From a virus: a stretch of DNA of 40,784 nucleotides. Below, piece after piece: positions 13,901 through 39,562 of the stretch (position 1 is the first letter of the stretch; the number at the start of each line of letters is the position of its first letter). The stretch spans positions 1 through 40,784 of the IMG/VR virus record IMGVR_UViG_3300042298_003217; one strand, 5' to 3'. The translations under genes and the position numbers were made by a program. The notes beneath the pieces are model-generated. The model worked only from the letters and a program-made list of their open reading frames with translations. It did not search any database and had not been told where the DNA came from.

Positions 13901-14288
13901 AACATGTTTCATATTCAAGTTCATCTGCAATAAATGATTCTTGAACATTTATATAAAGTTTTTCTCTTATAGGTATGATTAAATTACCTTCATCACTCTT
14001 AATTAAAAATTGGCCTTCATATCTACCTACCTTACTGGTATCTCTATTTGTAAATTGATAATAAATATAATATTCAGGTTCCGCATTTGGATCATCAAAT
14101 GTTTTTTCAACAAAACCCGCAGGACGAGAAGTTATCTTTGGGATTCCTGTTTCGATATCTACCATTGAAAAAAATAGAGCTGAAACTTCAATCAAGTCCA
14201 TTAATTTGTTATAATCACTTCTCCCATCACGTACCACCTGAATTTTAAGGAGTGGTAACGTGGCGTTTTTCTTGATATCAAAATTCAT
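7971..14288 (-). CDS. Giant tail-fibre/adhesin: BppU-like N-terminus, PKD-like caps, two BspA/DUF285 arrays, Thr/Pro linkers (2,105 aa)
   Basis: Residues 1-135 ([18 protein letters not shown], then [14 protein letters not shown]) resemble the BppU-type baseplate-anchoring domain, so a virion location is likely. Three Thr/Pro linkers lie at about 144-201, 1232-1330 and 1533-1661. A PKD-like unit with the motif YWGDGS (about 206-263) leads into about 25 BspA-like DUF285 repeats (about 296-980; consensus [20 protein letters not shown]). A second PKD-like unit (INWGDGN, about 1669-1732) leads into about 10 more repeats (about 1759-2046). Both arrays end in the usual cap with YNW. Other regions are unrecognised beta domains with paired Cys. 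It probably binds host surface polymers. A glycosyltransferase cassette lies immediately upstream. The start is ATG 14288. Confidence 0.75.
9305..9690. repeat. Thr/Pro linker-coding tract with 42-base units and a 117-base tandem duplication
   Basis: This tract codes for Thr/Pro linker 3 of the 2,105-residue fibre. The 14-residue unit [14 protein letters not shown] (42 bases) recurs, and GSISTTP appears six times. At higher order, 9454-9569 and 9571-9686 are identical over 116 bases with a period of 117 (39 codons), so expansion keeps the frame. Confidence 0.9.
10298..10590. repeat. Thr/Pro/Lys linker-coding tract
   Basis: This imperfect tandem tract encodes linker 2 of the 2,105-residue fibre, built from [17 protein letters not shown] and TRTVTP variants. 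It is less homogenised than linker 3 but has the same alternating Thr-Pro character, with added Lys and Arg. Confidence 0.85.
13685..13857. repeat. Thr/Pro linker-coding tract
   Basis: This imperfect tandem tract encodes linker 1 of the 2,105-residue fibre ([20 protein letters not shown] variants). It separates the BppU-like anchor from the first PKD-like unit. Confidence 0.85.
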
Positions 14289-16283: not shown

Positions 16284-16291
16284 TTGTTTAA

Positions 16292-18553
16292 TTATTTTTT
16301 TATAAAACAACCCCAAACTACTTCACACATATTATCATATTCAAATTTTTCAAAATCCAAATATTCAATAATGTCTTGAATGTCTTTGAGTTGTATTTCA
16401 TTCCAATTCCATTTTTTATTTTTGAATTCTTTTTCAAAAATGTCTGAATTTTCTATATAATCGTGAACCATTATTATGTCCCCCTTTTTACAAATCGGAG
16501 CTAATGATTTGAATTCTTTTACTTGATTACCGCCGTCACACATAAAAATATTAACACCTTCAGTATTTAAAAAATCATTTAGGGTTTCTTTAGATTTTTC
16601 AGTTAATTTAAATTTATCGCTCTCGAAAATATTTTCACAAAAGAATTCTATATTATCAGGTAAGTTAGAATTTTTGTTCAAATTTTGACAGTCTTTTATA
16701 TCATAACTCCTAACTTTACTTTCAGTTAAATTTAATTCGTTTAATATATCGGATATAATTAACGTCAATCCCCCGTATTCAGTCCCAATCTCAACAATCC
16801 TTATTGGTTTAACCTTTTCGAATAATGTTTTAAGATTTTCTTTAACATTTGACATTTGTAAAACATACAAATCATTGTAAACAAAACTACCAATAACCTC
16901 TTCGATTATTTCATCTTCACTTGGTTCCAAAATTTTAAAATCTGTTATTATTTCTTGGGTCACTGTATTTCCAAAATAATCCAAAACTCTGTCTTCGTGA
17001 CTAATTTTACAATATTTTGTAAAATTTTCGTTAGGTGTGATACCAATCATTTTCATTTTAGCGTAAATCGATGATGTTCCAAAATAAAGACCATCGTGAT
17101 ACGTGAAAAAGTTTTTGTTTTGTTCGGAAATTTTATCCCAAAAAGAAATAAAATTTTGTAATTTTTCATTATTTTTAAAAAGTACCCTTGTTTCGGCAGG
17201 ATTTGGGGCTAAGTCCATTTCTTCAGTATAAAGACCAACGAATTCTAAATTGATTTTGTCTTGGAAATGTTTATATGTAGTTCTCAATCCTCCGAGTTGT
17301 GGGTTGGCGTGAGAAACAAATGCAACGTCAAAATCTTCTCTACATTTTTTTTCATAACTCAACCTGTCCCACCCATCTATAAAACAGTCACAGTCGTGAA
17401 AATACACATAATCGTATTTCATATATGAAGCAAGTTTTATAGGATATCTTTTCAAGTGCATGTTGAATTTGTTTGCGGATATTATCGGTTCATCGAAGTT
17501 TTTTTCGTAATCAAAAATTTTAACTCTATTAGATGTAAATTGACTGAACCTATCAACTTTGTTTGTGATTAACAAAATATCAAAATCTGTAAAGTTCAAA
17601 TAAGTTTCAATCAAATTTTTAGCGTTGTCAGTATATCTTGTACTATTTTCATTTATTTCTATACTGATAGTAGAAACACAAGTTTTTGGTTTTTTTTCTA
17701 TCTCAAATATATTATAAAAGAAAATTGTTTTTTCACCCAAATTTGACGAATTATCTCTGTCATACCAATCGTCAAATTCTAATGTTATAAAATCTTCTAA
17801 ATTGTTCTGATATAAACAAGACATTATTAACTCTTCATAATATAAATATTTTTCATTTTCCAACAAAGTTGTAAGTAAATCATCAAATTTATTTTTTATT
17901 TTGATAAATGAATTTAAATCACCACCAAAAAAACCACCTATAATATGTTTGGTGTTATTATATTCGTTATAATATTTTGGAGGTACTGTTTGACTCCAAT
18001 AAAATCTTCCAGTATTATTCTTAGAAACAATTAAAAATTTACCGTCGTCTGTGAGTTTATTTATATGTTCCAAATATTTTTTGTTGAATAAGTTGAAGTT
18101 GTAGTGTTTTATGTAAGAATCTCCGAATGAATATTCTTCGGGAAATAAACCTCCGTGTGATAGTCCGGCATCAAACCAATAAACTTTTTCGTAGTCTGAT
18201 AAGTTATCTATATTTTCTAACCAAAAAAATTTGTTATATTGAATTTCATGACATCTATCAATAGTTTTAATCCACTCATAATCTTTTATTAAATCAATTT
18301 TATCATAGTATTTAGAATCTTCTAAATTGAATGGTATCAATTCTAATATATCTCTAGAGATATTATGCTCCTCATAATAAAAATTTTCAAGGTTTGATAA
18401 TTCTTCAGGTGAAGTGAAACATATAAATTTATATGCTTCTAAATTTAATATATTTAATAAACTTAATTTATAATGAGCCTCCCTACTAGGTCTACCTCCG
18501 AATTTAGTCCCCCATAAATTATTATATATTGAGGTTATTATTAAAGTTTTCAT
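16292..18553 (-). CDS. Glycosyltransferase-glycosyltransferase-methyltransferase fusion (753 aa)
   Basis: Three domains can be read. Residues 1-300 form an HtrL/YibB-like domain (MKTLIITSIYNNLWGTKFGG; YWFDAGLSHGGLFP with D128; an IGGFFGGDLNS segment) related to the N-terminus of the 644-residue neighbour. Residues about 305-550 form a second GT-A-like domain with the DxD motif in YFHDCDCFIDGWD near residue 388. Residues about 565-753 resemble a class I SAM-dependent methyltransferase of the cephalosporin-hydroxylase/Methyltransf_24 type (RIVEIGTEYGGLTLIIS as the glycine-rich loop, INIFMCDGG-like acidic strand, DIIMVHDYIE). Together they could add sugar and then cap it by methylation. The start is ATG 18553, 13 bases after the upstream stop. 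Acceptor unknown. Confidence 0.75.
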   Translation of the reverse strand: MKTLIITSIYNNLWGTKFGGRPSREAHYKLSLLNILNLEAYKFICFTSPEELSNLENFYYEEHNISRDILELIPFNLEDSKYYDKIDLIKDYEWIKTIDRCHEIQYNKFFWLENIDNLSDYEKVYWFDAGLSHGGLFPEEYSFGDSYIKHYNFNLFNKKYLEHINKLTDDGKFLIVSKNNTGRFYWSQTVPPKYYNEYNNTKHIIGGFFGGDLNSFIKIKNKFDDLLTTLLENEKYLYYEELIMSCLYQNNLEDFITLEFDDWYDRDNSSNLGEKTIFFYNIFEIEKKPKTCVSTISIEINENSTRYTDNAKNLIETYLNFTDFDILLITNKVDRFSQFTSNRVKIFDYEKNFDEPIISANKFNMHLKRYPIKLASYMKYDYVYFHDCDCFIDGWDRLSYEKKCREDFDVAFVSHANPQLGGLRTTYKHFQDKINLEFVGLYTEEMDLAPNPAETRVLFKNNEKLQNFISFWDKISEQNKNFFTYHDGLYFGTSSIYAKMKMIGITPNENFTKYCKISHEDRVLDYFGNTVTQEIITDFKILEPSEDEIIEEVIGSFVYNDLYVLQMSNVKENLKTLFEKVKPIRIVEIGTEYGGLTLIISDILNELNLTESKVRSYDIKDCQNLNKNSNLPDNIEFFCENIFESDKFKLTEKSKETLNDFLNTEGVNIFMCDGGNQVKEFKSLAPICKKGDIIMVHDYIENSDIFEKEFKNKKWNWNEIQLKDIQDIIEYLDFEKFEYDNMCEVVWGCFIKK

Positions 18554-18566
18554 ATTGAATCAATAA

Positions 18567-19814
18567 TTATAGATTTCCGGTTATTCTCTCACACCATCCC
18601 TTAGATTCAGAATATGGCCATACAACCCAATACTTTGGTTTTTCAACAGTTTGGAATTCTCTCCAAACCTTACAATATCCGTCAGGATCTCTCATCATAC
18701 TTGCAATTTCATTTTTATCCGCATCTTTTCTATATAACGTTTCATCATTTTTATCGTGAAATGCAACAACCCAAAAATCATAATCTTGCTCAGGTACTTG
18801 TTGTTTGTATATGTCAATACAATGTTTAAATATTGATGTAAAACTATTTAACCATTCTTCTTCATCTTCAATAACAGGATTTGGTGGATATTGTTTATCT
18901 AAAGTATGTTTTTGTATTGCTCTTTTTGAAAAAAGAAGACCGGCATATTTTTCATAATCTCTCAAAGTTCTTTCAGTACCAAATCCATAAGGACCATCAT
19001 GACCTTTTTGTTCTTCACCATCCATACCAAATAATTGTCTATTTAAAAGATGTGATTTATTATTTTTCTCAACCCATTGTTTGTCATCGTCCCACTGTTT
19101 TGTTCTTCCTTTTCTTGTATATTCATGCCAAATAAGAACTTTATGTGGATGGAACAAATCATATCCGTGGGTATAAGCCCTAACCGCAATTGAAATTTCC
19201 TCACCATGAAAATAATATTCAGGATTATGTTGTACTTCTTTGGCAAATTCTCCCAATGTAAAACAATAATGAGCTGAATAGAATCTTGCGGGTATTGGTT
19301 CTTTTAACTTATTCCAATTTGGAATTGTTTCAGGTAAAAAGAAAACGGGTGATTCAGGAATAAATCTATCAAAAACCATTCTCCAAGGTTCTTTAACCCT
19401 TCCAGCAGGATCGTTATCAGGATCAAATGAAGAAACATATCCAGTTAATAAAGGTTTTTTATAACCTTTTTTCTGTAGTTGTTTTACCATCTTAATCATC
19501 TCTTCATCCCAATTTTTTTCAAACCTCATGTGAGAGTCAATTTGGAGTGTGTATTCTTCACCTTCATATAACTGTTGAACTTGATTTCTAGCCCAACAAA
19601 CTCCTTTTGAATCTGTATAGATTATATCTAAAATTCTAAATCTTTTATCTCCTTTATATTCATCTAAATTATCAAAACCATCTTCTGGATGATATTGTCT
19701 TGCAATACCAAAGATTAAATTTTTTGGTCTTTTAGCGTTATCTATTGCGCTTTTTATTGTTTTAATTAATTCTGGATCTCTATAAGATGCTATTTGTATG
19801 AAGATTTTACTCAT
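18567..19814 (-). CDS. GlcNAc-transferase family (PF11397-like, GT60-type) glycosyltransferase (415 aa)
   Basis: The product begins MSKIFIQIASYRDPELIKTI and contains GVCWARNQVQQLYEGEEYTL followed by QIDSHMRFEKNWD. These are the signatures of the GlcNAc glycosyltransferase family, whose eukaryotic members attach GlcNAc to hydroxyproline of Skp1. D93-S94-H95 takes the place of the DxD metal-binding motif. Downstream are GYVSSFDP, FHGEEISIAVRAYTHGYDLF (the second acceptor/catalytic region) and a WHEY segment, all in the usual order. Length fits a complete family member. The gene starts at ATG 19814, 65 bases after the 1,395-residue adhesin. It is first of the three-gene glycosylation block. Bacterial and viral members exist, so the hydroxyproline substrate should not be assumed here. 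Confidence 0.85.
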   Translation of the reverse strand: MSKIFIQIASYRDPELIKTIKSAIDNAKRPKNLIFGIARQYHPEDGFDNLDEYKGDKRFRILDIIYTDSKGVCWARNQVQQLYEGEEYTLQIDSHMRFEKNWDEEMIKMVKQLQKKGYKKPLLTGYVSSFDPDNDPAGRVKEPWRMVFDRFIPESPVFFLPETIPNWNKLKEPIPARFYSAHYCFTLGEFAKEVQHNPEYYFHGEEISIAVRAYTHGYDLFHPHKVLIWHEYTRKGRTKQWDDDKQWVEKNNKSHLLNRQLFGMDGEEQKGHDGPYGFGTERTLRDYEKYAGLLFSKRAIQKHTLDKQYPPNPVIEDEEEWLNSFTSIFKHCIDIYKQQVPEQDYDFWVVAFHDKNDETLYRKDADKNEIASMMRDPDGYCKVWREFQTVEKPKYWVVWPYSESKGWCERITGNL

Positions 19815-19879: not shown

Positions 19880-22800
19880 TTAACAAGGATTACCCCATTG
19901 TGGTCTAGTCGATGTTCCACCAGCCCAATTATTCGTACCTGTGTCAAATCCGATAGGTTTAGTTGGAATATTTACAACACACCAATTACTTAAATCTTGA
20001 TTGAATTGTGTTGATGCTGAGAACATATAACTCATATTTGGCGATGTTATTGCTGAGACTGACCAACCACTTATTGATGGACTACCTCCATTATTAAATG
20101 TTGCTGCGGATATAAACATACCATAAAAACTTGTCGATGCAATATTATTTATAATCCAAGAACCTATATCTTGATCAAAATCCTCAGCATTTCTGAACAT
20201 TTCTTCAAATGAAGTAACACTAGACACATCCCAACTATTTAATGGTTGATTAAATAATTTAGCACTTTCAAACATATAACTCATATCCGTAACATTTGAA
20301 ACATCCCAACTATTTAATGGTTGATTAAATGTTCCAGCACTTACAAACATATAACTCATATCCGTAACCGCCGAAGTAGACCACGAATTAATATTTTGAT
20401 CAAATAACTGAGCACTATAGAACATATAACTCATATCGGTGACGTTCGAAACATCCCAATTATTTAATGGTTGATTAAATGGAGTATTTCTAAACATACC
20501 GTCCATATCTGTAACCGCAGATGTTATCCATAAATTAAGATTTTGATCAAAATCCTCCGCACTAAAGAACATTTGACTCATACCTGTTACATTTGACGTA
20601 TTCCAAAATCCTATTGCTTGGTTAAATACCTTTGCCCCTGTAAACATTTCATTCATGTTTGTTACACCAGAGGTTTTATTGTGCCATGAATTTAATGGTT
20701 GATTAAATGATGTTGCCGCTCTGAACATTCTGTACATTGTGGTAACATTTGACACGTTCCAATTGTTAATTGATTGATCAAAGTCTTCTGCACCAAAGAA
20801 TGTTCTACTCATATCAGTTACATTTGAAACATTCCAACCACTTAAAGGTTGATTAAAGTCTATAGCCGATTGGAATGTTCCTACCATAGTTGTAACTCCT
20901 GAAATATTCCAAGAATTTATATTTTTATTAAAAGAACTGGCATCTCTAAATGTTTCATCTAAATTAATTACATTAAATGTGTCCCAACTATTCAAAGGTT
21001 GGTTAAACGAAGTTGCGGATCTGAATGTGCCAGACATTCCTGTAACTCCTGAAATATTCCAAGAATTTATATTTTGATTAAAGGATGTTGCTCCTCTAAA
21101 CATATCATTCATACTAGTTACATTACTTAAATCCCATAAACTTGGGTTATTTATTGTGACTAAACTAGTACAATTCATAAACATTTCATCAAGATTGGTT
21201 GTTCCTGATAATGAAGGATAATCAACAGTACCTGATAATGTTAGGTTATTAGCCCCCTTGAAATAAGCCCCATCATTACCCAATAAAACTTGACCCCATC
21301 TGTTAACATGTAATAATTTAACTTTATCATTATTTGAACTACCTGAGAATTTGAAACCTTCTATCTGACCAACAATTTTAACTATATAATCATCAGGAGA
21401 GGCATATGTGTGTAATGTTAATGGATCGTTCCACGTTGTAATAGTATCACTATTTCCATCACCCCAATAAACAGTAAAGTTATACGTACCAGTACTTATC
21501 AAAGGTAATTGTAAATCACCACTTACTGTTGATGTTCCATCAGTATTAGATGTTCTCCACAAAGTAATAAATGAAATACAACCTATTACATTATCTGATA
21601 TTACATTTGACTCATAACCATATACAGTATCAATAATTTTAAAATTATATGTGTCATTTAAATTAGTTCCATTTAGTATATTTGGAATTGTTGTGGTTGT
21701 TGTTCCGTTTGGTGATAATCCCGCAAATGGATATAAATTAAACCATCCTGAAGCGCCTGAATACATTAACATGTAAGATCCACTTCCTCCTGTTACTGAA
21801 TAATTGGTAATAGCACTATATTCAAAATTTCCTCTTATACAACCACCGTCATCACAATCACACTCGATATCAAAACTATTTAAAATAATTCCACCAATAA
21901 ATCCACAACTTTCACAAGATATGTCATAATCTATTGATAAATCTACTTCAACACCAACATCAGAAAGAGGAAAATTAGGATTACAATCTGTTTTAATATT
22001 TATTGTGTTATTTATAAGATCAATTTTTACTTCATCAATATAATCGTATGATTCTATTAAACTCGTAACTTCATTTATTAATTGAAATTCTGTAGGGTAT
22101 TCTGACAATGTATTTGCCGTAAAAAATTCAGAAGTTTTACTTTCACCACTTACAATAGTTTCTAATGTAAAAATTGCAAAATTTAAAATACAGTTTGTGT
22201 CACCGCTAGTTAAATCTTTATATCCCTCCAATAACATTTGTTGAGGCCCTTTTTGTATAACCCCACTTTCAGTAAATGTATTTTCACAACTTATAAAATA
22301 ATTTGTGCTGGTATACCTGTTTTTTCCACCTATTATAACAGTACCTGTTTGGCTACAACCAGAAATGTCTGTTACAGTTAATGAATATGTTCCGGCGGTT
22401 AATCCTGTAACATGACTAGATGTTTGTCCATTAACATTAGATGACCAATTATAAGTAAATGTTGGAGTACCTGCGGTAACAAATACCCATATTTCGCCAT
22501 CACTACCTAATACTGTATCAATAGGGTATAATTCAAAACCTACTGTTGTTGATGACGCAACCAAAACATTTTCACTAACATTACATCTATTACCTGATGA
22601 TAATTCAGTAACACTAGCGGTATATGTACCATAACTTAATCCGGTATACGTATAAGAACTAAAAGAACCTGTAATGATATTTTCGCCTGTTAGTTGATAT
22701 TGAAAAGGCCCTGATGTACCTGAAACTTCTAATTTTACCGCCCCATTTTCTTGACCACATGTTGTCCCAGTGGTATATAATTCAAGATTAAAAAGTGGTG

Positions 22801-24067
22801 TATTATTAATTACGTAAGTGTTTGTATAATCACATCCTCCAGCATCGGATATCGTAAGTGTATAAATTCCACTTGTAAGATTATTGAATTGAACGGATGG
22901 ACTGTTTGTAACTTGAGTTTGAGTATCTCCTAAACTGTCTGTTAATTCATATGTAAATACCGGTGTTCCGCCATTTATTATTACATCTATTCTACCTCCA
23001 AAGTCATTACAATTTGAATTAGTAGTTCTTATTGATACAATGTTGAAACTACGTGGTGAAAATAATGTAACATTAGATATAAATTTACACAATCCGGCGT
23101 CGGTAACCATGAAATAAAATATTCCTGCCGGAACATTTGTAAATGTATAATTATTAGTTAAAATAGTGTCAGATTCTCCTGTAGACCCTGAAATATAATA
23201 TGGTGAAGTTCCACCAGTTATTATAACTTTAACTTGACCATCTGAATTAAAACAACTTGGTTGTTGTAAAACTTGAACACTACCAACTCCAGGTGGCGAA
23301 ACAAGTCCAACTTGAGCGGTTTTTGTTACTGCGCAACCTGTACTATCTGTTACAGTAACTGAATAACTACCATTTGTTAAATCTATTAAAGAACTGGTTG
23401 TTTCACCATTATTCCACAAATAAGTGTATGGTGCCGATCCTGTAAGTCCTGTTATATAAACTTTACCAAATCCAGTTCCAGGTGGATCACTATTACATGG
23501 TGTTTGATCGATTATGTAGAAACCGTAATCAAATGTGGTAGAACTTTTAATAACACAAGATTCTGTTTTTCCTGTACAACCACCCCCATCATTTGCTATC
23601 ACATAATAAGTTCCAGCACTCAGTGAATTAAAAATAAATTGGTTATTTAATATATTCACCGCAGAACTAACTAAACCATTTAAATTATATAGGTAAAAAG
23701 AGGCGTTACTATAAAAATTCTGAGTTTGCGCTGTTATAGATCCGTTATTTAAACCACAAATTGTATTTTGTTTTGTAAAACTAACGCAAGTTCCGCTAGA
23801 TATATAAAAAGTTACTAATACCCCGTTGTTATATGGACTTGAGTCTTTAACAAAAAAACTATATGTTCCTGCCGATAATGATCCTAAACCGTAGACAGGT
23901 GAATTATTCCCGACACCAAAATCCTCGAAGGTACCCGCCAATGAACTTGGAGTCTCCCAAATTAATGTGTAGGCCGGACTACCCCCAAACATATTTATAT
24001 TAAAAGCGCCAGAACTATTATTTGTACAATCCCCGGTAGTATTTAAAATATAATCAATTGTTGGCAT
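19880..24067 (-). CDS. Giant adhesin: seven SprB-like units, PKD-like cap, BspA/DUF285 array (1,395 aa)
   Basis: Residues 1-565 contain about seven SprB-like units. Each has a Cys-containing start, a G(G/S)xxPYxYxW-type core and an SAGTYxxxVxDxxGC end (for example LTAGTYSLTVTDISGC). SprB repeats are characteristic of Flavobacterium gliding adhesins. A middle domain (about 590-730) ends in DLSIDYDISC. A PKD-like unit with VYWGDGN (about 842-919) precedes about 16 BspA/DUF285 repeats (about 962-1372; [20 protein letters not shown] type). There is no signal peptide, so it is not exported as a cell-surface adhesin would be and more likely sits in the virion. The start overlaps the wedge gene stop in TAATG. 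The role is probably host surface binding. Confidence 0.8.
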   Translation of the reverse strand: MPTIDYILNTTGDCTNNSSGAFNINMFGGSPAYTLIWETPSSLAGTFEDFGVGNNSPVYGLGSLSAGTYSFFVKDSSPYNNGVLVTFYISSGTCVSFTKQNTICGLNNGSITAQTQNFYSNASFYLYNLNGLVSSAVNILNNQFIFNSLSAGTYYVIANDGGGCTGKTESCVIKSSTTFDYGFYIIDQTPCNSDPPGTGFGKVYITGLTGSAPYTYLWNNGETTSSLIDLTNGSYSVTVTDSTGCAVTKTAQVGLVSPPGVGSVQVLQQPSCFNSDGQVKVIITGGTSPYYISGSTGESDTILTNNYTFTNVPAGIFYFMVTDAGLCKFISNVTLFSPRSFNIVSIRTTNSNCNDFGGRIDVIINGGTPVFTYELTDSLGDTQTQVTNSPSVQFNNLTSGIYTLTISDAGGCDYTNTYVINNTPLFNLELYTTGTTCGQENGAVKLEVSGTSGPFQYQLTGENIITGSFSSYTYTGLSYGTYTASVTELSSGNRCNVSENVLVASSTTVGFELYPIDTVLGSDGEIWVFVTAGTPTFTYNWSSNVNGQTSSHVTGLTAGTYSLTVTDISGCSQTGTVIIGGKNRYTSTNYFISCENTFTESGVIQKGPQQMLLEGYKDLTSGDTNCILNFAIFTLETIVSGESKTSEFFTANTLSEYPTEFQLINEVTSLIESYDYIDEVKIDLINNTINIKTDCNPNFPLSDVGVEVDLSIDYDISCESCGFIGGIILNSFDIECDCDDGGCIRGNFEYSAITNYSVTGGSGSYMLMYSGASGWFNLYPFAGLSPNGTTTTTIPNILNGTNLNDTYNFKIIDTVYGYESNVISDNVIGCISFITLWRTSNTDGTSTVSGDLQLPLISTGTYNFTVYWGDGNSDTITTWNDPLTLHTYASPDDYIVKIVGQIEGFKFSGSSNNDKVKLLHVNRWGQVLLGNDGAYFKGANNLTLSGTVDYPSLSGTTNLDEMFMNCTSLVTINNPSLWDLSNVTSMNDMFRGATSFNQNINSWNISGVTGMSGTFRSATSFNQPLNSWDTFNVINLDETFRDASSFNKNINSWNISGVTTMVGTFQSAIDFNQPLSGWNVSNVTDMSRTFFGAEDFDQSINNWNVSNVTTMYRMFRAATSFNQPLNSWHNKTSGVTNMNEMFTGAKVFNQAIGFWNTSNVTGMSQMFFSAEDFDQNLNLWITSAVTDMDGMFRNTPFNQPLNNWDVSNVTDMSYMFYSAQLFDQNINSWSTSAVTDMSYMFVSAGTFNQPLNSWDVSNVTDMSYMFESAKLFNQPLNSWDVSSVTSFEEMFRNAEDFDQDIGSWIINNIASTSFYGMFISAATFNNGGSPSISGWSVSAITSPNMSYMFSASTQFNQDLSNWCVVNIPTKPIGFDTGTNNWAGGTSTRPQWGNPC

Positions 24068-27000
24068 TATTTATTACAATATATATCAAAATTTATTTTT
24101 AATCTTATTAAAAAATTTAAACCTCTTTTAGATTCTGAACATAGTAAGTTATATATTACAACTTTATTGTCGATAGTGTAATAGTAAGATAAACCAAGAG
24201 AATTTAAAGATTGTAAAGCGTTTGATAGTCCGTAATCCCAGTCTGACTGATTTGGATAACTTACATCAGGTGTATTAAATCCAACCCCATTAAAGAAAAC
24301 AAAAGAACTAACTAAAGAATTATCAAAAACAATTTCAACAACCCATTGACTTGTCATGGTGTCTAACTCACAATTTGTTAATTCTGTTGGCACTTCATCA
24401 GTAACAAAATCTGATAAAATTGTACCAAAATTTAAAATATCGGGATCACCAGTACCAGGATATCTTTCACATTCAACAGATTGGGTAGGACATATATCAG
24501 GAAAAAAATCTCCATTGGCTTCACAAGGTGTGCAAGGTATTGGTTCTAATTGGCACCCTTGTTGTCTTCTCCAAACAAATTTTTGTCTATGAAAAGCGGA
24601 ATTTTCATATTTTACACCAGTATTCCAAATTGTACTAGCGGGAATCATTTGTTCAACTAATCTAACCCAATAATCACCTAAACCTTTAACATACTGAATC
24701 ATTGTATTGTAGTTAAAGTTATCGTTTTGGACTCCAGCTAAATTTTGTGATTCTAAATATTTCCAGTAAATTGATTCTAAAGTTGGATACCCCATTGTTT
24801 TTCCATTGCCGGCAAATTGTCTATTCCTAACATTAATCATGTTAACCCAAAAAGTTTGAGCAAATTCAAAAAAAGTTGTTTGAGCGGGTTTTGGATCTAT
24901 TTCAGTCCAATCTACCCCACCTTTTTTTGGATATTCAGAATATGGATTAGGTACACAATTTGTTGGTGCCACATAATTCAAACCTTGATTAGGTATAGGG
25001 AAATTAAATTCTTTAGACATATACCAAACATCGTACACTAAACCTTGTGCAGGATTCATAAATAAATCCACGTTTTTCACATTTAAAACTAATCTATCAT
25101 CAGAAGTTTCATATCTTGCATAAAAATTACCATCATAATTTTCTCTCAAACCATTATCTCTATTTGTCCAACTTTTTTTGTTATCAACAATTGGCGTTAG
25201 TTCAAAACCCAAATTAGTATATGGCAACTTTCTAAATCTATCTAAATAAACCTGTCCATATGTATATGGTATTAGAGTAGTTTGATAATTTGGATTTGCC
25301 CCTGTAAAAACACTATTAGTCAAATCAGGTTGTTCTGGCGCTCTATGATCTGGTGTTTGTTCAAACCAACCACTACCTATTTGAAAAAAATAATTTTCAG
25401 TATCAGGTGGAGTTTGCGGATAACCTTGACTATCAATTGGGTATTCATCTATCGTTATACTAACATCAGTATAGGTAATTTGGGTTGTATACCCTGTAAA
25501 TTCATCACCATAGATTGTAAAAGTGTCGGTAGGATCTAATACAGGTGTTTCTTTGGCATATGTACCTCCAGATATTTTTGCAAACTGTTGGTTAAAATCG
25601 GCCATATTAATTTTTTGATCCGCCACATAAACATACTCATTAAATTCAACCAAAGATTCTGGCGCACCAATTAATCTCATTAAAGTTTCAATTGATTTTC
25701 TTGTACCTTTTGATTTAAAAAGCCAAGAAGCATTTAAAACAACATTTTTATAAAATTGTATATTTAATTCATCTGGTGTCGGAGCATTACCAACACCCGT
25801 AAAATTTGATTTTGTATAGTTTCCGCTACCAAAAATTGAATTTAAAAAATCATCATTTGTAATTGGAGATATATTTGTATTCCAACCCAATGTCTGAGCC
25901 AAATTTTTTAATAATTGTGATGGGATATCATTTCCGGTATTATAGTTTACGGAATTCATATATGCCAAAGCATTTATATATTTTCTAGTCTCATCAAAAC
26001 TACGACCATAAATCTGTAAAACTTTTTCCATTTTACGATCTTCCGTATCAAAATCTTTAAAAGCGCCTGTTGTTAAAAACCTTGAAACTAAATTTGTTCT
26101 ATATGAATCAAAATTTTCAGATATATCATTTATCTTTGTGAGATAATTTTCAAAACTATCGGTCAATATATCTAAATTCCACACATCATAAAGTGGCCAC
26201 GTAACAAGATCTTTTCCAACATAATATGTTCCATCCTCATTCTGTCTAGGCACATTAAAAGATGCGGTATAAATAGGTGTTTGACTTCTATTTAATAAAA
26301 AATCTTCAACCTCATCAAAGTTTTCGTTAAAGGATACATTTACTTCAGCGTCGTTTGGTCTAATAACCAAATCACTATAAAATATAGATAAACCTGAAAA
26401 AGGATTACCTGAAACATATATTTTTAAAGTTCCACTACTCAATGATTGAGTAGGAATTAAATAAGTTAAAACATATTCTTGATTATTTAGATAGAGAGAA
26501 TATTTTGCAAAATTTACCGTTAAATTTCTTAATTCAGATACCTCAATTTCTTTTAAACTTAAATTTCTTGTAGAATTTATTGTAAAATCAATTTCAAAAG
26601 GATTTCTAAGTCTTGAGACATTTAATTCAAAACTTGTTTCATCCATAATTGGATTATAAACAATGTTATTAGCGGTAGGTCCTTTTTTGTAATTTGAACC
26701 TAAATATGTTGAAACAATTGCGGCTGGAAAATAATTAATTATTTTTTGAATGGATGTTTCCATTCTTTTTACCATAGAACCAAATAAGGTGAAATTTGTT
26801 ACTTCGGATAAATCAAAGTTAGGATAAACTTTAAAATTATTTTCAACAATAGTTTTCGATTCATTTATTGTTAATATTCCCAATGAATCTAAATTTATTG
26901 GGTCTGAAAATATTCCAGTTATAAAATTTCTATTACTTTTTTCAGTAATACTTTCTGTAAATTCAAAATTACCTTGTGTTAACCCGCCTCCTTGGGTTAA

Positions 27001-27081
27001 CTGTAACCCAACTAAATTATCTGAGAATGTGCGTTCTCCAGATGGTTTTTGTGGTGGGCAGGTATATTTTTTTATCGCCAT
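24067..27081 (-). CDS. Baseplate wedge protein, P2 gpI / T4 gp7-like (1,004 aa)
   Basis: A segment at about residues 327-474 has the order seen in Tail_P2_I proteins: a helical region, then IPSQLLKNLAQTLGWN, then NASWLFKSKGTRKSIETLM and RLIGAP. In P2 this family (gpI) pairs with the gp6-like gpJ, and it corresponds to T4 gp7 in the wedge. The remaining 500 residues and the N-terminal 300 are beta-rich and unrecognised. The last 110 residues (ending LIRLKINFDIYCNK) look similar to the middle domain of the downstream adhesin, possibly an attachment domain for it. Starts and stops overlap both neighbours by TAATG. The T4 size is 1,032 residues, close to this one. Confidence 0.65.
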   Translation of the reverse strand: MAIKKYTCPPQKPSGERTFSDNLVGLQLTQGGGLTQGNFEFTESITEKSNRNFITGIFSDPINLDSLGILTINESKTIVENNFKVYPNFDLSEVTNFTLFGSMVKRMETSIQKIINYFPAAIVSTYLGSNYKKGPTANNIVYNPIMDETSFELNVSRLRNPFEIDFTINSTRNLSLKEIEVSELRNLTVNFAKYSLYLNNQEYVLTYLIPTQSLSSGTLKIYVSGNPFSGLSIFYSDLVIRPNDAEVNVSFNENFDEVEDFLLNRSQTPIYTASFNVPRQNEDGTYYVGKDLVTWPLYDVWNLDILTDSFENYLTKINDISENFDSYRTNLVSRFLTTGAFKDFDTEDRKMEKVLQIYGRSFDETRKYINALAYMNSVNYNTGNDIPSQLLKNLAQTLGWNTNISPITNDDFLNSIFGSGNYTKSNFTGVGNAPTPDELNIQFYKNVVLNASWLFKSKGTRKSIETLMRLIGAPESLVEFNEYVYVADQKINMADFNQQFAKISGGTYAKETPVLDPTDTFTIYGDEFTGYTTQITYTDVSITIDEYPIDSQGYPQTPPDTENYFFQIGSGWFEQTPDHRAPEQPDLTNSVFTGANPNYQTTLIPYTYGQVYLDRFRKLPYTNLGFELTPIVDNKKSWTNRDNGLRENYDGNFYARYETSDDRLVLNVKNVDLFMNPAQGLVYDVWYMSKEFNFPIPNQGLNYVAPTNCVPNPYSEYPKKGGVDWTEIDPKPAQTTFFEFAQTFWVNMINVRNRQFAGNGKTMGYPTLESIYWKYLESQNLAGVQNDNFNYNTMIQYVKGLGDYWVRLVEQMIPASTIWNTGVKYENSAFHRQKFVWRRQQGCQLEPIPCTPCEANGDFFPDICPTQSVECERYPGTGDPDILNFGTILSDFVTDEVPTELTNCELDTMTSQWVVEIVFDNSLVSSFVFFNGVGFNTPDVSYPNQSDWDYGLSNALQSLNSLGLSYYYTIDNKVVIYNLLCSESKRGLNFLIRLKINFDIYCNK

Positions 27082-31770: not shown

Positions 31771-34700
31771 TTAATCAATTATGTTTTCAAAATCAAGGTA
31801 TTTTTTTGCAAATCTATCAAATGCCGATTTTCCAGACCTCAAACCAAAATAAAAATGGAAAGGAGCCCCAACTGTTATAACTCGCCCAAGAGGAGAACTA
31901 TTTTGAGCAATTGTTCCAACCTCTGCGGATAAAGTCCCGTCTGGATTAACTGAATATATATAACCTTTAAAATATTTTGTTATATTTGATGTATCAGTTC
32001 TAAAATATCTTGAACTTTGTAATAGTCTATCCAAAGATTGATATCTTTCGCTAAAGAAAATTGGACTTGTAATATACTCCGTATACCACTCATTTTTTTG
32101 TGATCCAAAAATACTATCACTATCGGGGTCTTCCTCTTTTATTTCCCATTGATAAAATGGTACTTCTTGAGAAAAAACATTAAAATTGCTGAAAGCACAA
32201 TCATCGGTTATCTCAACATTTGGGCTAATTATTGTTCTTTTTGGTGTTACAAAATCTCTTAATTGAGTGTCCGATGAGAAAAATATTCCCATAACACCTT
32301 TTTGAGCATTTGCGCCATTATAATAAATTGGATCTTGTTCACAACCAGGATTATCAGGATAATCTTCGGCTTCAAAAGACTGTATTCCTAACTCAGAACT
32401 TATTGATATCATTTGCGCATAATCAGCATCAACTCTTTTAATCCCCCTACTAAAAAACTGTCCAACATTACCACCACCAATTAGTAAACCAATAAAACTT
32501 TTACTAGATAGTCTTGAAATTATTAAAAGATTTAAAATTTCACTTACGTCATTAAATGTGGTTGATTTTAATTTATTCATTATATAACCATCATATTCAT
32601 CAGAAAAAATAATTTCTTGTAAATAATCTACTTTTGGCCCCATGTCCAAAATGGTTGTTGGTGTTTTTAAATTCAATTTATTACCACCATAATCAATACT
32701 CAAAGAATTAAAAAAGTCCTTTATTCTTTCAGCTCCAATGAAACCAACACCATCTTTATATGGGCTGCTTCTATAATAAAAATTATTAGTTGGTGGGTGT
32801 AATATTACTGTTTTAGTACAGTAATTTGAAGAAGCTTGATTTGGGTTTTGACTTGTCGGTGAAGTAAATAAAACTTTATTTTTTATTGCGTAAGCAAACA
32901 AAGTACCATTAATCCAATTATTGGTGAATATATGTGACCATATATTCCTGCAAGCCGCAAAAGTTATTTGTACTCTAGATGTCCATTCGGTTAATAATAC
33001 TAAATCTTTAGGTAAAGATAATAATAAATTTGTAACAAAAACATAACATCCGTTTACCATTATTTTTTCATCATCTCCAGTCCCATTACCCCAACATTTA
33101 TCATCTTCAGGCAAAATAATTAATTCAGAAGTTCCTGGACAAGTAGTACTATCTGAGGTATCATAACACCCTAATGGCACCATATTTCCACATTCAAATG
33201 ATTGTAATATAGTACTTCCAACCAAAGGTGTTTCTCCTGTTAGTGCGTCACTAGGTCCGTTAAAATTGGGTGTATCTAATGTTGTACCTAAATTTTGACT
33301 ACAACCATTATCATCTACAATAAAAAAACTTAATTTTTGGTTATTTTGTAAGGCATAACTATTTCGTCCAAATAATGTTTCTTCAGTTGAAGTTGGTAAA
33401 CTGTCTGACCTCATTATAATTCTTTTACTAGTTGCCGCAAAACTAAAATCTATTTCGGGTAAAGGAATAATTGTATTTGATATACTTTTGTAAGAAGGGG
33501 CGTAATAGATGGATGTGATTTTTGGTATACCAAGTATTACTGGATTTATTTCCATATACATAAAAGACCCCCCATCAACTATTTCATTTTGTAAATAATT
33601 CCTATAAGGATTCGGTGAAATATTAAAAGTTATTGTACTATTAATATCTATTTCATATAGAAATCTATTTTTCGGTGCGTTAGGTTGTTCAATTGCGGTA
33701 ATAACTACCCCATTAAAACCACCAGCTACATCTTCCAAATCATATTGTGAGTCATTTAAAAGTGGTTGAAAAGTATTTAAATCATTACGTAAACAAGAAT
33801 AATAATATGGTAAATCTGAAGTGAATCCACTAAATTGTTGTGGTGAAAGTTCAAAATGAAAAGATGGATAATAAAGATATTTTCCAGTAGAATCTGGAAA
33901 ATTATTCTGGATCAAGTCATGTTCTACGGCTTTATAAGAATCAAAAGGTTGTGTCTGTGTCACTCCTCCTTGTATTGGTATGTTTAATTTGTAATCGCCA
34001 GTTACTACAACACTACCAGAATCTTCATTATAACCAAATAATAAACTAAGATCATATGAAACTTTAGTTCTTGTTGAGTATGGATCAACTCCTCTAACCA
34101 AAAAAACAACCACTTGATCATCTCCAGTTTTTTTATCTATCGGATCTTCAAAGTTGTCTAAAGGTATAGGATATACATTAGATTCCAAATATAGTCCAAC
34201 ATTTGTTACAGCATAAAATTCAATATCATTATTTAAAAATCTTTTATATAATGTATATGGTAATGGATTTGTATTACCTTGTAAACTTTTATAATTATTA
34301 TAAGTCATTGCGGTGACTACTTGAAAATACTCTATATCAATAGGGTATTTTGCATACAAAGCGTCTTCGGTAGATCCTGTAATATAATATACAACACTTG
34401 TATTACCTAATCCACTTGGATTAGCATATTGTATAGTTACATTATTAGCTAAATTTATAGGAGTACCTGTTATTGAGTTAGTCCCATAAACATTTGTTGT
34501 AGCACTCTTAATATTCAAATCTTTTGATTTACTACATTCTTGGAATGTTACAATAGTGCCGGGTGTGAGTTTATCTAAAACCCAATTTCTGCATAAAACC
34601 ACAACAGTGTTATCATAGTGATGTTTACCAGGATTTTGATCAACATTAAATTGTACTCTAATTCTGTTCACTGCACCTCCAGGATTGAAACTGAAAGTAT

Positions 34701-36810
34701 CATCGAAATATTTTGCCTTTGTGTTAAATAGATTTATTCTTTCCGCTAATGTTAAACTGGTTGAAAAAAATTGAGTAATACCACTACCAACATCTCCATT
34801 TTGGCCGTAAATTTGTGGAGCTCTGTCGGGTTCTCCCGCCATTATAAAACCAATAGGATCATCATACGTATAAGAACTTGGCTCTGTTAATAAACTTAAA
34901 TAACTATATGCACCATATTCTTCTATAGCCGCGTCTGTTTCTTCATTCAATGGGTTAGAATCTCCACCATCACCAACTTGTTGTCCTTCTTTACAAGAAC
35001 AAAATTCACAATCAGGATAGGATAAATTAGGAACTTGTATATTTGTAAATTTTTTCCAAAGATTAAGCGCCTGCAAAGCCACTCCTGGATTAAATGTGGT
35101 TGCACAATCTTTTGCGGTTATTTTTTTACTAAAAACACTTACTATAAGACAAATAGTGAATAATAAAGGTAGTAATGAAAAAATTAATAGAGCAATTATT
35201 GGGCCTAAAATAAATTTTAAAAGAAAACCTAAAATATGAACTAAAGTTATTACAAGATATAAAATCGGTTTAAATATGAAAATAAAAAAAGAAAATATAA
35301 AATATAAAAAATCAAACCTTTGAAACGAGTCATTAGTTGGAAATTTATTTGTTTCGCTTTCACATTCTGAGTCTAAAATATTTTTAATTATAGTACCTTT
35401 TTGTGGATTATAACCATATCTAAAAAAATCTATCATTTGTGAAACAGTATAAACCTTATTATAGGTCATAGGATAAAATCTATCTTCACAACTAATAGCT
35501 TCTTGAATCATTTTTTGGCCTAAAGTAGTTCCCGTGTTTCCATAATCAGCCCAATCCAAACTAAACGCATAAGACTTTGTAACCGCCTCTTCGTTTGCTC
35601 CGCCATCATTAAAAGGGTCGTCGTCTGTATCCACCCATCCCCACTCTTTAACATTTGGAACTAAAAAATAACCTCTTTTTGTTGATTCACTCAATGATGG
35701 TGATTGATTATACTTTATTTTAAATCTATATTTTGCCCTTGTTGGGACTCCTACTTTTGGATCATTAGATAGTACTCTTTCTCCAAATTCATTCGTAACC
35801 ACATAGTCCAAATTCATAGGAAGGTCAACAACCCAAGTGCCATTTTCATCAATAACTTGACCTGATTCATCCAAAACATATTGTTCTAATATTGGTCTAC
35901 CTTCACTATCTAAATTAATTGTTTGTCTGATCGCCAATATTTCACCAGGACCAACATTTAATTGACACAAATCTCCAAGTTTATTTCTTGGTTTACAATT
36001 TTTTTTGAGAAAATAATCATCATTTGAGGTAATCAATGAACCCATAAATGTTGCTGTAGGTTCGATTGTAATATTCAATTCTGAAGATAGATCAAAATCA
36101 ACCCTTGTAATACCCAAATTACAAATATCTTCTTCACCCCAAAAAGGATCTACTTCAACTATTTTATTAATAGTTACAATTTGTGGTAGTGAGTTTAAGT
36201 TACTTGATGTTTTAAATTTTGTCCCTGAAACTTGAATTTCCGTAGCCAATCCTGTCCTTATCAAATCTTGCGGAGTTAAAGAAAATTCACCAATATCGGA
36301 TAAATCTAAATCTAAATGAATAGTTTGAGGTCCTAAAGGAACTCCAAAAATCATAAAATCACCACTTTCATTAGTAACAGCATTTAATTTATAGTATTTT
36401 TCATATACCTCAATTAATGTTTGATCCAATAAAATATCTTCTCTACTAAAAAAAGTGCCTGTAGGACTATGAGAACTATATGATTTTTCATAGGGTAAAA
36501 GATTATATCTATAACCATCTTCATTTATATCGTCCAATCTTTTATAAGGATATAGATCCGATATTAATGGATTTAATTCATCCTCATTAGTTAGTGGTAC
36601 AAAAATTGAAACTTTACAATTAGGTAATCCAAAACCATTATTTATTGATACTCTACCAACTACAACGCCATAATCTGAACATTGTCTGGTATATACTTGA
36701 CTTTGTAATAATTTAAGGGATAAAATTTCTAAAAATTCAAAATCTTGATCTATTTGTACTTTAATAGATTTATCTATACCTACATTTGTTTTTATCCTAT
36801 AAGAATTCAT
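31771..36810 (-). CDS. Giant structural protein with carboxypeptidase-regulatory-like domain and internal membrane cluster (1,679 aa)
   Basis: The N-terminus (MNSYRIKTNVGIDKSIKVQI) is followed at residues 48-165 by segments (VVVGRVSINNGFGLPNCKVS and NESGDFMIFGVPLGPQTIHL) resembling a carboxypeptidase-regulatory-like beta-sandwich interrupted by an insertion. Residues about 495-565 are a dense run of hydrophobic residues (FLYFIFSFFIFIFKPILYLV onward, ending in FSKK) long enough for three or four membrane spans. A Cys-rich CEFCSCKEG follows near 602. The rest is beta-rich and unrecognised. It lies directly after the gp25/gp6-like genes. Possible roles include baseplate hub extension or a membrane-inserting part of the injection machinery. 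These are inferences. Confidence 0.6.
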   Translation of the reverse strand: MNSYRIKTNVGIDKSIKVQIDQDFEFLEILSLKLLQSQVYTRQCSDYGVVVGRVSINNGFGLPNCKVSIFVPLTNEDELNPLISDLYPYKRLDDINEDGYRYNLLPYEKSYSSHSPTGTFFSREDILLDQTLIEVYEKYYKLNAVTNESGDFMIFGVPLGPQTIHLDLDLSDIGEFSLTPQDLIRTGLATEIQVSGTKFKTSSNLNSLPQIVTINKIVEVDPFWGEEDICNLGITRVDFDLSSELNITIEPTATFMGSLITSNDDYFLKKNCKPRNKLGDLCQLNVGPGEILAIRQTINLDSEGRPILEQYVLDESGQVIDENGTWVVDLPMNLDYVVTNEFGERVLSNDPKVGVPTRAKYRFKIKYNQSPSLSESTKRGYFLVPNVKEWGWVDTDDDPFNDGGANEEAVTKSYAFSLDWADYGNTGTTLGQKMIQEAISCEDRFYPMTYNKVYTVSQMIDFFRYGYNPQKGTIIKNILDSECESETNKFPTNDSFQRFDFLYFIFSFFIFIFKPILYLVITLVHILGFLLKFILGPIIALLIFSLLPLLFTICLIVSVFSKKITAKDCATTFNPGVALQALNLWKKFTNIQVPNLSYPDCEFCSCKEGQQVGDGGDSNPLNEETDAAIEEYGAYSYLSLLTEPSSYTYDDPIGFIMAGEPDRAPQIYGQNGDVGSGITQFFSTSLTLAERINLFNTKAKYFDDTFSFNPGGAVNRIRVQFNVDQNPGKHHYDNTVVVLCRNWVLDKLTPGTIVTFQECSKSKDLNIKSATTNVYGTNSITGTPINLANNVTIQYANPSGLGNTSVVYYITGSTEDALYAKYPIDIEYFQVVTAMTYNNYKSLQGNTNPLPYTLYKRFLNNDIEFYAVTNVGLYLESNVYPIPLDNFEDPIDKKTGDDQVVVFLVRGVDPYSTRTKVSYDLSLLFGYNEDSGSVVVTGDYKLNIPIQGGVTQTQPFDSYKAVEHDLIQNNFPDSTGKYLYYPSFHFELSPQQFSGFTSDLPYYYSCLRNDLNTFQPLLNDSQYDLEDVAGGFNGVVITAIEQPNAPKNRFLYEIDINSTITFNISPNPYRNYLQNEIVDGGSFMYMEINPVILGIPKITSIYYAPSYKSISNTIIPLPEIDFSFAATSKRIIMRSDSLPTSTEETLFGRNSYALQNNQKLSFFIVDDNGCSQNLGTTLDTPNFNGPSDALTGETPLVGSTILQSFECGNMVPLGCYDTSDSTTCPGTSELIILPEDDKCWGNGTGDDEKIMVNGCYVFVTNLLLSLPKDLVLLTEWTSRVQITFAACRNIWSHIFTNNWINGTLFAYAIKNKVLFTSPTSQNPNQASSNYCTKTVILHPPTNNFYYRSSPYKDGVGFIGAERIKDFFNSLSIDYGGNKLNLKTPTTILDMGPKVDYLQEIIFSDEYDGYIMNKLKSTTFNDVSEILNLLIISRLSSKSFIGLLIGGGNVGQFFSRGIKRVDADYAQMISISSELGIQSFEAEDYPDNPGCEQDPIYYNGANAQKGVMGIFFSSDTQLRDFVTPKRTIISPNVEITDDCAFSNFNVFSQEVPFYQWEIKEEDPDSDSIFGSQKNEWYTEYITSPIFFSERYQSLDRLLQSSRYFRTDTSNITKYFKGYIYSVNPDGTLSAEVGTIAQNSSPLGRVITVGAPFHFYFGLRSGKSAFDRFAKKYLDFENIID

Positions 36811-37262: not shown

Positions 37263-39101
37263 CTATGAAAAATTAACCGTTTTAAGATTTTTAACTCTTA
37301 CGTTTATGTCTTTATTTGGAAATCTTATTTGATATATTTGACTTGGTTCTGAAAAAATTGTATCATCAATTAATTCAATTTCTTTTGTTTCAGAATTAGA
37401 ATATCTTTGTGATGTTTGTGATGATGAGTACTGTCCACCTATTTTATTAAAAACTGAAATATTTGACAAAGATATTACACCATTTTCACTCTGTATTAAC
37501 CTTCTTATTTCTGATATATTCACATTTTCTCCCATTTGTAAATTTAATGGATCAAAATAATCTGAAACTATATTAATTATTTGTGAAATAACCGATCCTT
37601 GATTTTGTGTTGAATCTAAAACTACGTCAATTATAAAACCTAAATCAATAACACTTCCATTTTCTATAGAAATATAGTCATTTATCATTCTATAATTCGA
37701 TAAATAATTTGCAACATTACTTTTTAAAGTATTAGAAACAACCTCTGTTAAATCGCCGTTTTCATCATAAGATAACATTTTTATTTTTATTTTATTATTT
37801 TCTTCGGTAATTGTTACTTTTGCCGGAGCCCCAAATTGAGATGGCATTGTCCTAATTAATGAATTATAATCGTTGACTGTAACCGCTCTATTTTGTGCTG
37901 CGAAATTAAATGCTACTAAGTTTCTAACTTCTTCAATTGTAGGAAAGTTTGCCCCACCTATAGCCGCGGTTACATTATTACATCTTAAAGAATTAATTAC
38001 TGTAGTATTTGTGGCAGTTGAAGGACCATTTACAAAGAAAAATATTGTACCTAGTTGATTTATTACACCAACTCCAACATTACTACTTATACCACCTCCT
38101 GTTCGATATTGTATAAAAAGTGTTGAGTTTGCTTTAAGACTACTTCCTAAAGCTAAATTATTTGAATACTTGTATAGGTCAAGTTTAAATCCATTTTTAG
38201 CAAACTCTCTTAATTGTTCTTCTGAAGATTGGTTACCCCCACCAAAAGTCATTTTTAAAAATCCTTCGGGTGTAAACTCTGTAATAAATTTATTAGTAAC
38301 TAATACATATTTTCCAACTTTTATTGATGGTGTGTCTGATGGTTTGGTAGGATCCTCTATAAAAACTCTATCCTCAATCAAAGCTTTAACTTCATACCAA
38401 CGATTTTCTAAACCTAAAAATTCTTGTACTGTTGGAACATTTGCATATTGCGTTCCATCTTTTAATATAACACTAGTAACCCCTAATACATTTTTTTCGG
38501 GTAAAAATAACTCATAAAAAGGTCTTACATCGTTAGCGGTTATAACTTTTTTAAATACTTTAGTAGTTCCATTAACTACAGTTTCCCTTTTAATAATAGT
38601 GTAACTTAATAATTTGTCGTTTGTATCAAAATTAGGTATTTTAACCCGATTTGGGAAACCTTCCGAATTTGTTGGTGAAGCAAAGTCAATATCATTAACA
38701 GTTTCAAATATTTGTCCTCCACCATTTACTTGGGAACCTCTCCTCAATATACCACAATATCTTAAATCTTCTTTATCACCAAAAACAGGAACCACTATTG
38801 AAAAATCACATAAAGCCACAGATGGTCTTTGTCCGGGTATTTTAAGACCATAAGTTCTCGCTATATTGTATATTGAAGATCTTTGTTGTGCATATTGTAA
38901 AACAGTTTCTTGAATACTTCTATCAATATTGAATTGTAAATTATCGGTTACCGCAGCGTTTAAATCAATTAATGCGGAAAATATTGACGCATCATTAAAA
39001 TTTTGTATTATATCAGGATAATAAGTCTTTGTAAAATTAATTAACTCAGTCCTAACCTGTTGAAAATCTCTTGTTGTATATGATATTTTTTTATTTGCCA
39101 T
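37263..39101 (-). CDS. Baseplate wedge protein, T4 gp6 / baseplate J-like (612 aa)
   Basis: T4 gp6 and the related J-like proteins form the ring of the baseplate wedge with gp7 and gp25. The N-terminus shows the family signature: YTTRDFQQVRTELINFTKTY, FNDASIFSALIDLNAAVTDN and a YNIARTYGLKIPGQRPS segment in the expected order. The middle contains AAQNRAVTVNDYNSLIRTMP, the conserved NDY region of J-like proteins. A later beta region and a C-terminal FPNKDINVRVKNL end the protein. Length is near that of T4 gp6 (660). It directly follows the gp25-like gene with two bases between, the same order as in T4 (25 then 6). Confidence 0.85.
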   Translation of the reverse strand: MANKKISYTTRDFQQVRTELINFTKTYYPDIIQNFNDASIFSALIDLNAAVTDNLQFNIDRSIQETVLQYAQQRSSIYNIARTYGLKIPGQRPSVALCDFSIVVPVFGDKEDLRYCGILRRGSQVNGGGQIFETVNDIDFASPTNSEGFPNRVKIPNFDTNDKLLSYTIIKRETVVNGTTKVFKKVITANDVRPFYELFLPEKNVLGVTSVILKDGTQYANVPTVQEFLGLENRWYEVKALIEDRVFIEDPTKPSDTPSIKVGKYVLVTNKFITEFTPEGFLKMTFGGGNQSSEEQLREFAKNGFKLDLYKYSNNLALGSSLKANSTLFIQYRTGGGISSNVGVGVINQLGTIFFFVNGPSTATNTTVINSLRCNNVTAAIGGANFPTIEEVRNLVAFNFAAQNRAVTVNDYNSLIRTMPSQFGAPAKVTITEENNKIKIKMLSYDENGDLTEVVSNTLKSNVANYLSNYRMINDYISIENGSVIDLGFIIDVVLDSTQNQGSVISQIINIVSDYFDPLNLQMGENVNISEIRRLIQSENGVISLSNISVFNKIGGQYSSSQTSQRYSNSETKEIELIDDTIFSEPSQIYQIRFPNKDINVRVKNLKTVNFS

Positions 39102-39103
39102 GA

Positions 39104-39562
39104 TTATATATTAATTATTACAAAATCACTTTGATCAAATACATCATCTGAAATTGTATAGTCTATTCTAATTTTTGCGGTATGTTCCAATTGAGAAATG
39201 TTTGATACTCTAAATACCTTGGTGTCATCTTCTGTAATAAAACTCCCCTTATTTTCTTCCCCTGACGAAGCGTCAGTTACAGAAATGTTTGTTATCGTTA
39301 AATTTGGTATAAATTCTTGTACAGATTCCCTTATTTCTCCCTGTATTTCAGAAAATGTTGGACCATCCATAGGTTCAAATATATATTCATATAATCTAGT
39401 CCCAAAATTTGGTAAAAAATATCTTGTTCCTTTTCTAGTCAATAATAAATGAATTAGATTACTTCTAACTTCTTCATTGTTTGTTTCTGAAAGATCAAAA
39501 TAATCACCAAATACTGAATCTCTAAATGGAAAATTTATTCCGTAAGTAGTTCCGTTCGCCAT
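39104..39562 (-). CDS. Baseplate wedge / sheath-initiator protein, T4 gp25-like (152 aa)
   Basis: GPW_gp25-family proteins join the wedge to the first ring of sheath. This product has YGINFPFRDSVFGDYFDLS at the N-terminus, the core NEEVRSNLIHLLLTRKGTRY, then FLPNFGTRLYEYIFEPMD, all matching the family layout (RxNLxxLLxTxxGxRxxxPxFG). The length of 152 fits T4 gp25 (132) and relatives. The C-terminal tail is longer and acidic (TISDDVFDQSDFVII). It lies directly before the gp6-like gene. It starts at ATG 39562, preceded by a TATTTATTTA element and no Shine-Dalgarno sequence. Confidence 0.85.
   Translation of the reverse strand: MANGTTYGINFPFRDSVFGDYFDLSETNNEEVRSNLIHLLLTRKGTRYFLPNFGTRLYEYIFEPMDGPTFSEIQGEIRESVQEFIPNLTITNISVTDASSGEENKGSFITEDDTKVFRVSNISQLEHTAKIRIDYTISDDVFDQSDFVIINI

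Follow-up and report, generated by a model that had tools for sequence, protein, structure and literature searches.

Among described phage proteins, two kinds stand closest to the locus analysed here. Tape measures with membrane-active segments (those of lambda, T5 pb2 and siphophage TMPs) bring to the tail module hydrophobic helices that are believed to work on the inner membrane. Baseplate wedge proteins of the T4/P2 type (gp25, gp6/J and gp7/I) are, to our knowledge, without a hydrophobic rod. The nearest described genomes are those of bS21 phages of freshwater Bacteroidetes, for which Chen et al. 2022 (PMC9723584) give lengths of 293-331 kb and GC contents of 31.0-33.7%, and report structural-gene transcription.

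The window, a stretch of 40,784 nucleotides of viral DNA, encodes a large protein, P0001, that lies in a baseplate gene neighbourhood and carries a conserved hydrophobic segment (Table 1). Tentatively, and with a little less than even confidence, we propose from its sequence and predicted structure that P0001 is a virion baseplate protein that would deliver a bundle of hydrophobic helices into the host membrane; a DNA-channel role is possible. The first-pass annotation of this DNA had given an open reading frame at these coordinates, with a product of this length, and had named no strand. The frame lies on the minus strand, the plus strand of the same interval being crowded with stops.

Table 1. 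Features of P0001 and its neighbouring genes, with positions in the window and the basis of each.
Feature	Position	Strand	Basis
P0001, baseplate-region protein, 1,679 residues	31771..36810	minus	ORF and translation
P0001 residues 1-490, beta-rich conserved N-terminal region	35341..36810	minus	AF2 pLDDT mostly >90
P0001 Cys483, ahead of helix, invariant	35362..35364	minus	90/90 nonredundant window-clade sequences
P0001 residues 499-562, hydrophobic segment; predicted single continuous helix 501-560	35125..35316	minus	Hydropathy, conservation, AF2
P0001 His525, near-invariant, inside hydrophobic helix	35236..35238	minus	88/90 window-clade sequences
P0001 CxxCxC motif (Cys601, 604, 606), after helix	34993..35010	minus	90, 90 and 88 of 90 sequences
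P0001 residues 607-1679, mostly beta, less conserved	31774..34992	minus	Conservation; first AF2 model (to residue 1150)
573-residue downstream neighbour of P0001 gene	30049..31770	minus	No Pfam/PHROG family match
gp6/Baseplate J-like wedge protein, upstream neighbour	37263..39101	minus	Baseplate_J Pfam 1.1e-4; PHROG baseplate wedge 5.1e-18
gp25-like baseplate protein	39104..39562	minus	GPW_gp25 Pfam 5.8e-13

Gene neighbourhood, family and host

Gene context places P0001 in the baseplate module of a contractile phage, with gp25 and gp6 neighbours in the window and sheath and tube genes on its relatives' contigs. The first of these had been recognised in the first-pass annotation, and the Pfam and PHROG matches bear it out. 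A single 142-residue ORF lies between the P0001 gene and the gp6-like gene in the window, and the order gp25, gp6, P0001 gene, 573-residue neighbour recurs in distant clades. Sheath and tube genes are present in 24 of 26 relatives' records, indicating that these are contractile phages. One record (L167:6283-10077) encodes a very large tail sheath protein of 1,264 aa to which relatives' sheaths align in the N- and C-terminal parts only, so that its middle is a variable insertion.

Downstream on the minus strand, a 1,004-residue protein (24067-27081) contains the motif FKSKGTRKSIETLMRLIGAP and has no Pfam or PHROG match; on our own reading of that motif, it is reminiscent of a gpI/gp7-type wedge protein. 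An assignment of P0001 itself as gp7 is unsupported, since the gpI/gp7-like motif, as we read it, sits in this downstream protein. Two very large proteins on the same strand (7971-14288 and 19880-24067) carry many DUF285 (BspA-like) repeats, the former with Thr-Pro-rich linkers and the latter with SprB repeats, and are likely fibre or adhesin proteins. Three genes among these structural genes (14349-19814, minus strand), with HtrL_YibB, sugar/methyltransferase-like and GlcNAc glycosyltransferase domains, may possibly serve glycosylation of the virion or of the host surface.

A first scan of viral contigs recovered 110 relatives of P0001, and profile searching brought at least 596; scans with distant relatives widened the family to contigs of up to 412 kb, and the use of a helix-less 728-residue relative as query added none. 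A tblastn search of 50,697 phage records gave no match to P0001 or to either of two distant relatives, and no entry of Pfam, PHROGs or the PDB sequences matches the family significantly, a PDB profile search included. A structure search of BFVD returned one significant match, an uncharacterised protein of Myoviridae sp. ctPuP5. The family is common to hundreds of uncultured giant phages, probably of Bacteroidota; these phages are abundant in metagenomes and absent from the isolate collection searched.

We infer a Bacteroidota host for the window's phage. The window has a GC content of 30.4%, and the SprB repeat is a Bacteroidota adhesin repeat. A relative, the 322-kb record of L131, has 31.5% GC, SD-like motifs ahead of just 6 of 206 genes, and a gene for ribosomal protein S21 (bS21; positions 243337-243495 of that record, G001) on the strand opposite to the surrounding genes. 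In size, GC range and bS21 arrangement it agrees with the freshwater Bacteroidetes phages of Chen et al. 2022 (PMC9723584), the consulted passages of which describe no P0001-like protein. This match supports the first-pass attribution to phages of Bacteroidota.

Domains flanking the hydrophobic segment

The AF2 models are in keeping with the earlier description of P0001 as soluble and beta-rich outside the cluster. Part of the N-terminal region resembles, in fold only, a carboxypeptidase-regulatory/CNA-B-like sandwich: a weak Pfam score in relatives and Foldseek matches to pilins and PA1324 point to this likeness. P0001 differs from such domains in that the best CarboxypepD_reg score in relatives is 17.7 bits, below the Pfam gathering cut-off of 32.3, and the TM-scores are low. 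Low-ranking Foldseek matches to cytolysins were dismissed as meaningless; the remaining matches are weak sandwich domains. The less conserved C-terminal region is largely absent from short relatives.

The invariant Cys483 and the CxxCxC motif flank the hydrophobic segment, and their conservation may reflect disulfides or a metal site where the helix begins and ends at its base. About a dozen cysteines in P0001 are invariant or nearly so (positions 44, 230, 272, 282, 441, 483, 601, 604, 606, 1207, 1215, 1255, 1287 and 1331), a pattern that suggests several metal sites or disulfides.

A conserved segment of transmembrane-grade hydrophobicity

Within residues 499-562 the only charged residues are D500, K514, K532 and K562. 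The maximum 60-residue Kyte-Doolittle (KD) mean of P0001 is 2.38, above every one of 5,000 shuffles of the protein (mean 0.83, sd 0.17, top 1.72), and the claim of about 70 nearly uncharged residues (about 495-565) thus holds. Over 21 residues P0001 reaches 2.82, against at most 1.36 in all others of the window's 22 minus-strand genes, and the segment is the sole strongly hydrophobic stretch in the tail module from the sheath to the fibre genes. On the Hessa scale the best insertion energy in P0001 is -3.9, and most window-clade members contain a 19-residue stretch at or below 0. Hydropathy and energy together mark a conserved segment of transmembrane grade.

Hydrophobicity has been retained while the sequence diverged. 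Among 90 nonredundant window-clade sequences the core (residues 499-537) has a mean KD of 1.97 (sd 0.26), whereas 39-residue windows elsewhere in these homologues average -0.37; pairwise identity is 0.28 inside the cluster and 0.57 immediately before it. All 150 nonredundant homologues, drawn from several clades, have Pro491, and a hydrophobic stretch follows it in 148 of them, which answers the question of conservation that the first-pass annotation had raised. The stretch itself varies in length from 44 to 115 residues, and in the gut/rumen clade the helices are amphipathic and more charged (mean 2.4 charges per 36 residues).

Homologues lacking the cluster, which the first-pass annotation had named as evidence against its proposal, do exist, but only as rare shortened forms. 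The two exceptions among the 150 (L081 and L285) are shortened, and a contig from a Bacteroidota bin (C209) has, in the same gene position, a 728-residue relative without the helix; a second contig of that bin (C55) encodes an 809-residue form with one short hydrophobic stretch. As judged from these sequences, such relatives weaken the view that the cluster is universally required and leave standing the view that it is functional. They also offer natural comparisons for the role of the helix.

A predicted single long helix

An AF2 model built with 33 sequences (mean pLDDT 60) and one built with 150 (mean pLDDT 88, pTM 0.75, with pLDDT 87-93 in the helix) both predict a single helix over residues 501-560; both are models of the monomer, and AF2 is capable of fusing hairpins into one helix. 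Hydropathy in the window clade is most strongly periodic at 3.60 residues (permutation P <1/2000), coherent over about 70 columns with phases of 91, 122 and 95 degrees from one third to the next; two sister clades give periods of 3.64 and 3.58. Hydropathy alone is significantly periodic in the segment, the entropy-based conservation measure giving P 0.35. The models, this phase-coherent periodicity and the occupancy of residues 495-531 in all 90 window-clade sequences favour a single unbroken helix, some 60 residues long and bearing a narrow, weakly polar stripe that includes His525, over the three or four probable spans suggested in the first-pass annotation. In the two other main clades the stripe has, without exception, an Asn at P+30 (47/47 and 21/21 sequences), and the consensus of one sister clade has GxxxGxxxG-like spacing.

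Tape-measure candidates

As the tape measure candidate we took a protein of 579-1,069 residues that follows the tube and a hub-like gene, an assignment made by position and composition, without a family match. P0001 itself was rejected for that role because it is mostly beta, lies beside gp6, and coexists with this separate candidate after the tube. Best 21-residue hydropathy in the candidates from eight window-clade records is 0.64-1.25, below transmembrane grade; in the gut/rumen clade it is 1.49-1.94. One gut/rumen-clade candidate has a sub-threshold glycine-zipper Pfam match (5.4e-5), and that of L378 (13301-16315) and others of the clade have glycine-zipper-like hydrophobic segments that are absent from the window clade's. 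The candidate of C209, whose P0001 relative lacks the helix, reaches 1.89.

Across 21 records, uncorrected for kinship, the more hydrophobic the helix, the less hydrophobic the tape measure tends to be (Spearman -0.46, P 0.036); on the energy scale the trend is not significant (P 0.25), and it follows clade boundaries. As the records are non-independent, we treat this relation as a lead only. Since P0001 has a conserved transmembrane-grade segment and the window clade's tape-measure candidate has none, P0001 is the tail module's foremost candidate for contact with lipid.

Possible roles of the helix

In the mechanism that we envisage, P0001 would belong to the virion baseplate of a large phage with a contractile tail and probably a Bacteroidota host, and would be docked beside the gp6-like wedge by its beta-rich N-terminal and C-terminal regions, as gene order suggests. 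Each copy would contribute one long hydrophobic helix, its base clamped by the conserved cysteines, and several copies may associate into a bundle along the narrow polar face, which has His525 or, in the sister clades, Asn, so that the helices are shielded in the virion. Sheath contraction would then expose the bundle and insert it into the host membrane, where it might anchor or line the end of the DNA conduit, the tape measure's job in many other phages. Virion location, oligomerisation, exposure, membrane insertion and a conduit role are all properties that we infer for P0001.

Against membrane delivery stand the length of the helix, which at about 90 A exceeds what one membrane requires and is variable, and the rare helix-less relatives in the same gene position; the clade-bound nature of the inverse trend, and its failure on the energy scale, weaken the reading further. 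It is tempting to go further and speculate, with considerable doubt, that within a large, uncultured group of giant contractile phages a baseplate protein has taken over from the tape measure as the bearer of the membrane-penetrating element, that a ring of long hydrophobic helices with the conserved His/Asn stripe forms the membrane end of the conduit, and that the division of work with the tape measure varies by clade. For DNA passage across the inner membrane in contractile phages, especially those of Bacteroidota, the family provides a specific, conserved and mutable candidate, with one helix and one His/Asn stripe.

The main rival, somewhat unlikely in our estimate, is that the helices pack together, or into a groove of other baseplate proteins, as a rigid rod or glue of the baseplate and never meet lipid. 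A single helix far longer than a membrane is thick would suit such packing, as would phase-coherent weak amphipathicity, conserved polar residues and the amphipathic, more charged helices of the gut/rumen clade, and a virion protein must in any case shield so hydrophobic a surface. Yet in the window clade even the most polar face is on average hydrophobic (Eisenberg +0.24; +0.42 in P0001), which exceeds the need of a soluble bundle, and the inverse trend with tape-measure hydrophobicity would be left unexplained.

We give little weight to a role in assembly rather than entry, in which the helix would enter the inner membrane of the infected cell after synthesis and baseplates would be built on a membrane-held scaffold. 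The strongly negative predicted energy means that the translocon could insert the helix during synthesis, and gp6 and the P0001 gene, which are adjacent in G001, have no conserved gene for a dedicated chaperone between them; however, the large flanking regions and the unvarying position in the baseplate operon are what one would sooner expect of a structural component, and short relatives manage without the helix. A hairpin or small polytopic domain of two to four crossings is unlikely: breakers do occur in P0001 at Pro515 (shared by 53 of 90 relatives) and Gly536-Pro537, and the hydrophobic stretch of some members extends to 90-115 residues, but neither AF2 run breaks the helix, the hydropathy phase continues across the putative turns, no window-clade sequence lacks residues 495-531, and clear turn residues are missing from between the would-be spans of the shortest members.

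Comparison with known systems

With the T4/P2-type wedge proteins P0001 shares a gene cluster, homologues of gp25 and gp6 lying near the P0001 gene; in sequence, nevertheless, the family matches none of the wedge proteins of Pfam, PHROGs or PDB. The tape measures of lambda, T5 (pb2) and siphophages differ from P0001, which is mostly beta, is encoded beside gp6 rather than after the tube, and is accompanied by a separate tape-measure candidate. What P0001 has in common with them is a predicted hydrophobic helix in the tail module.
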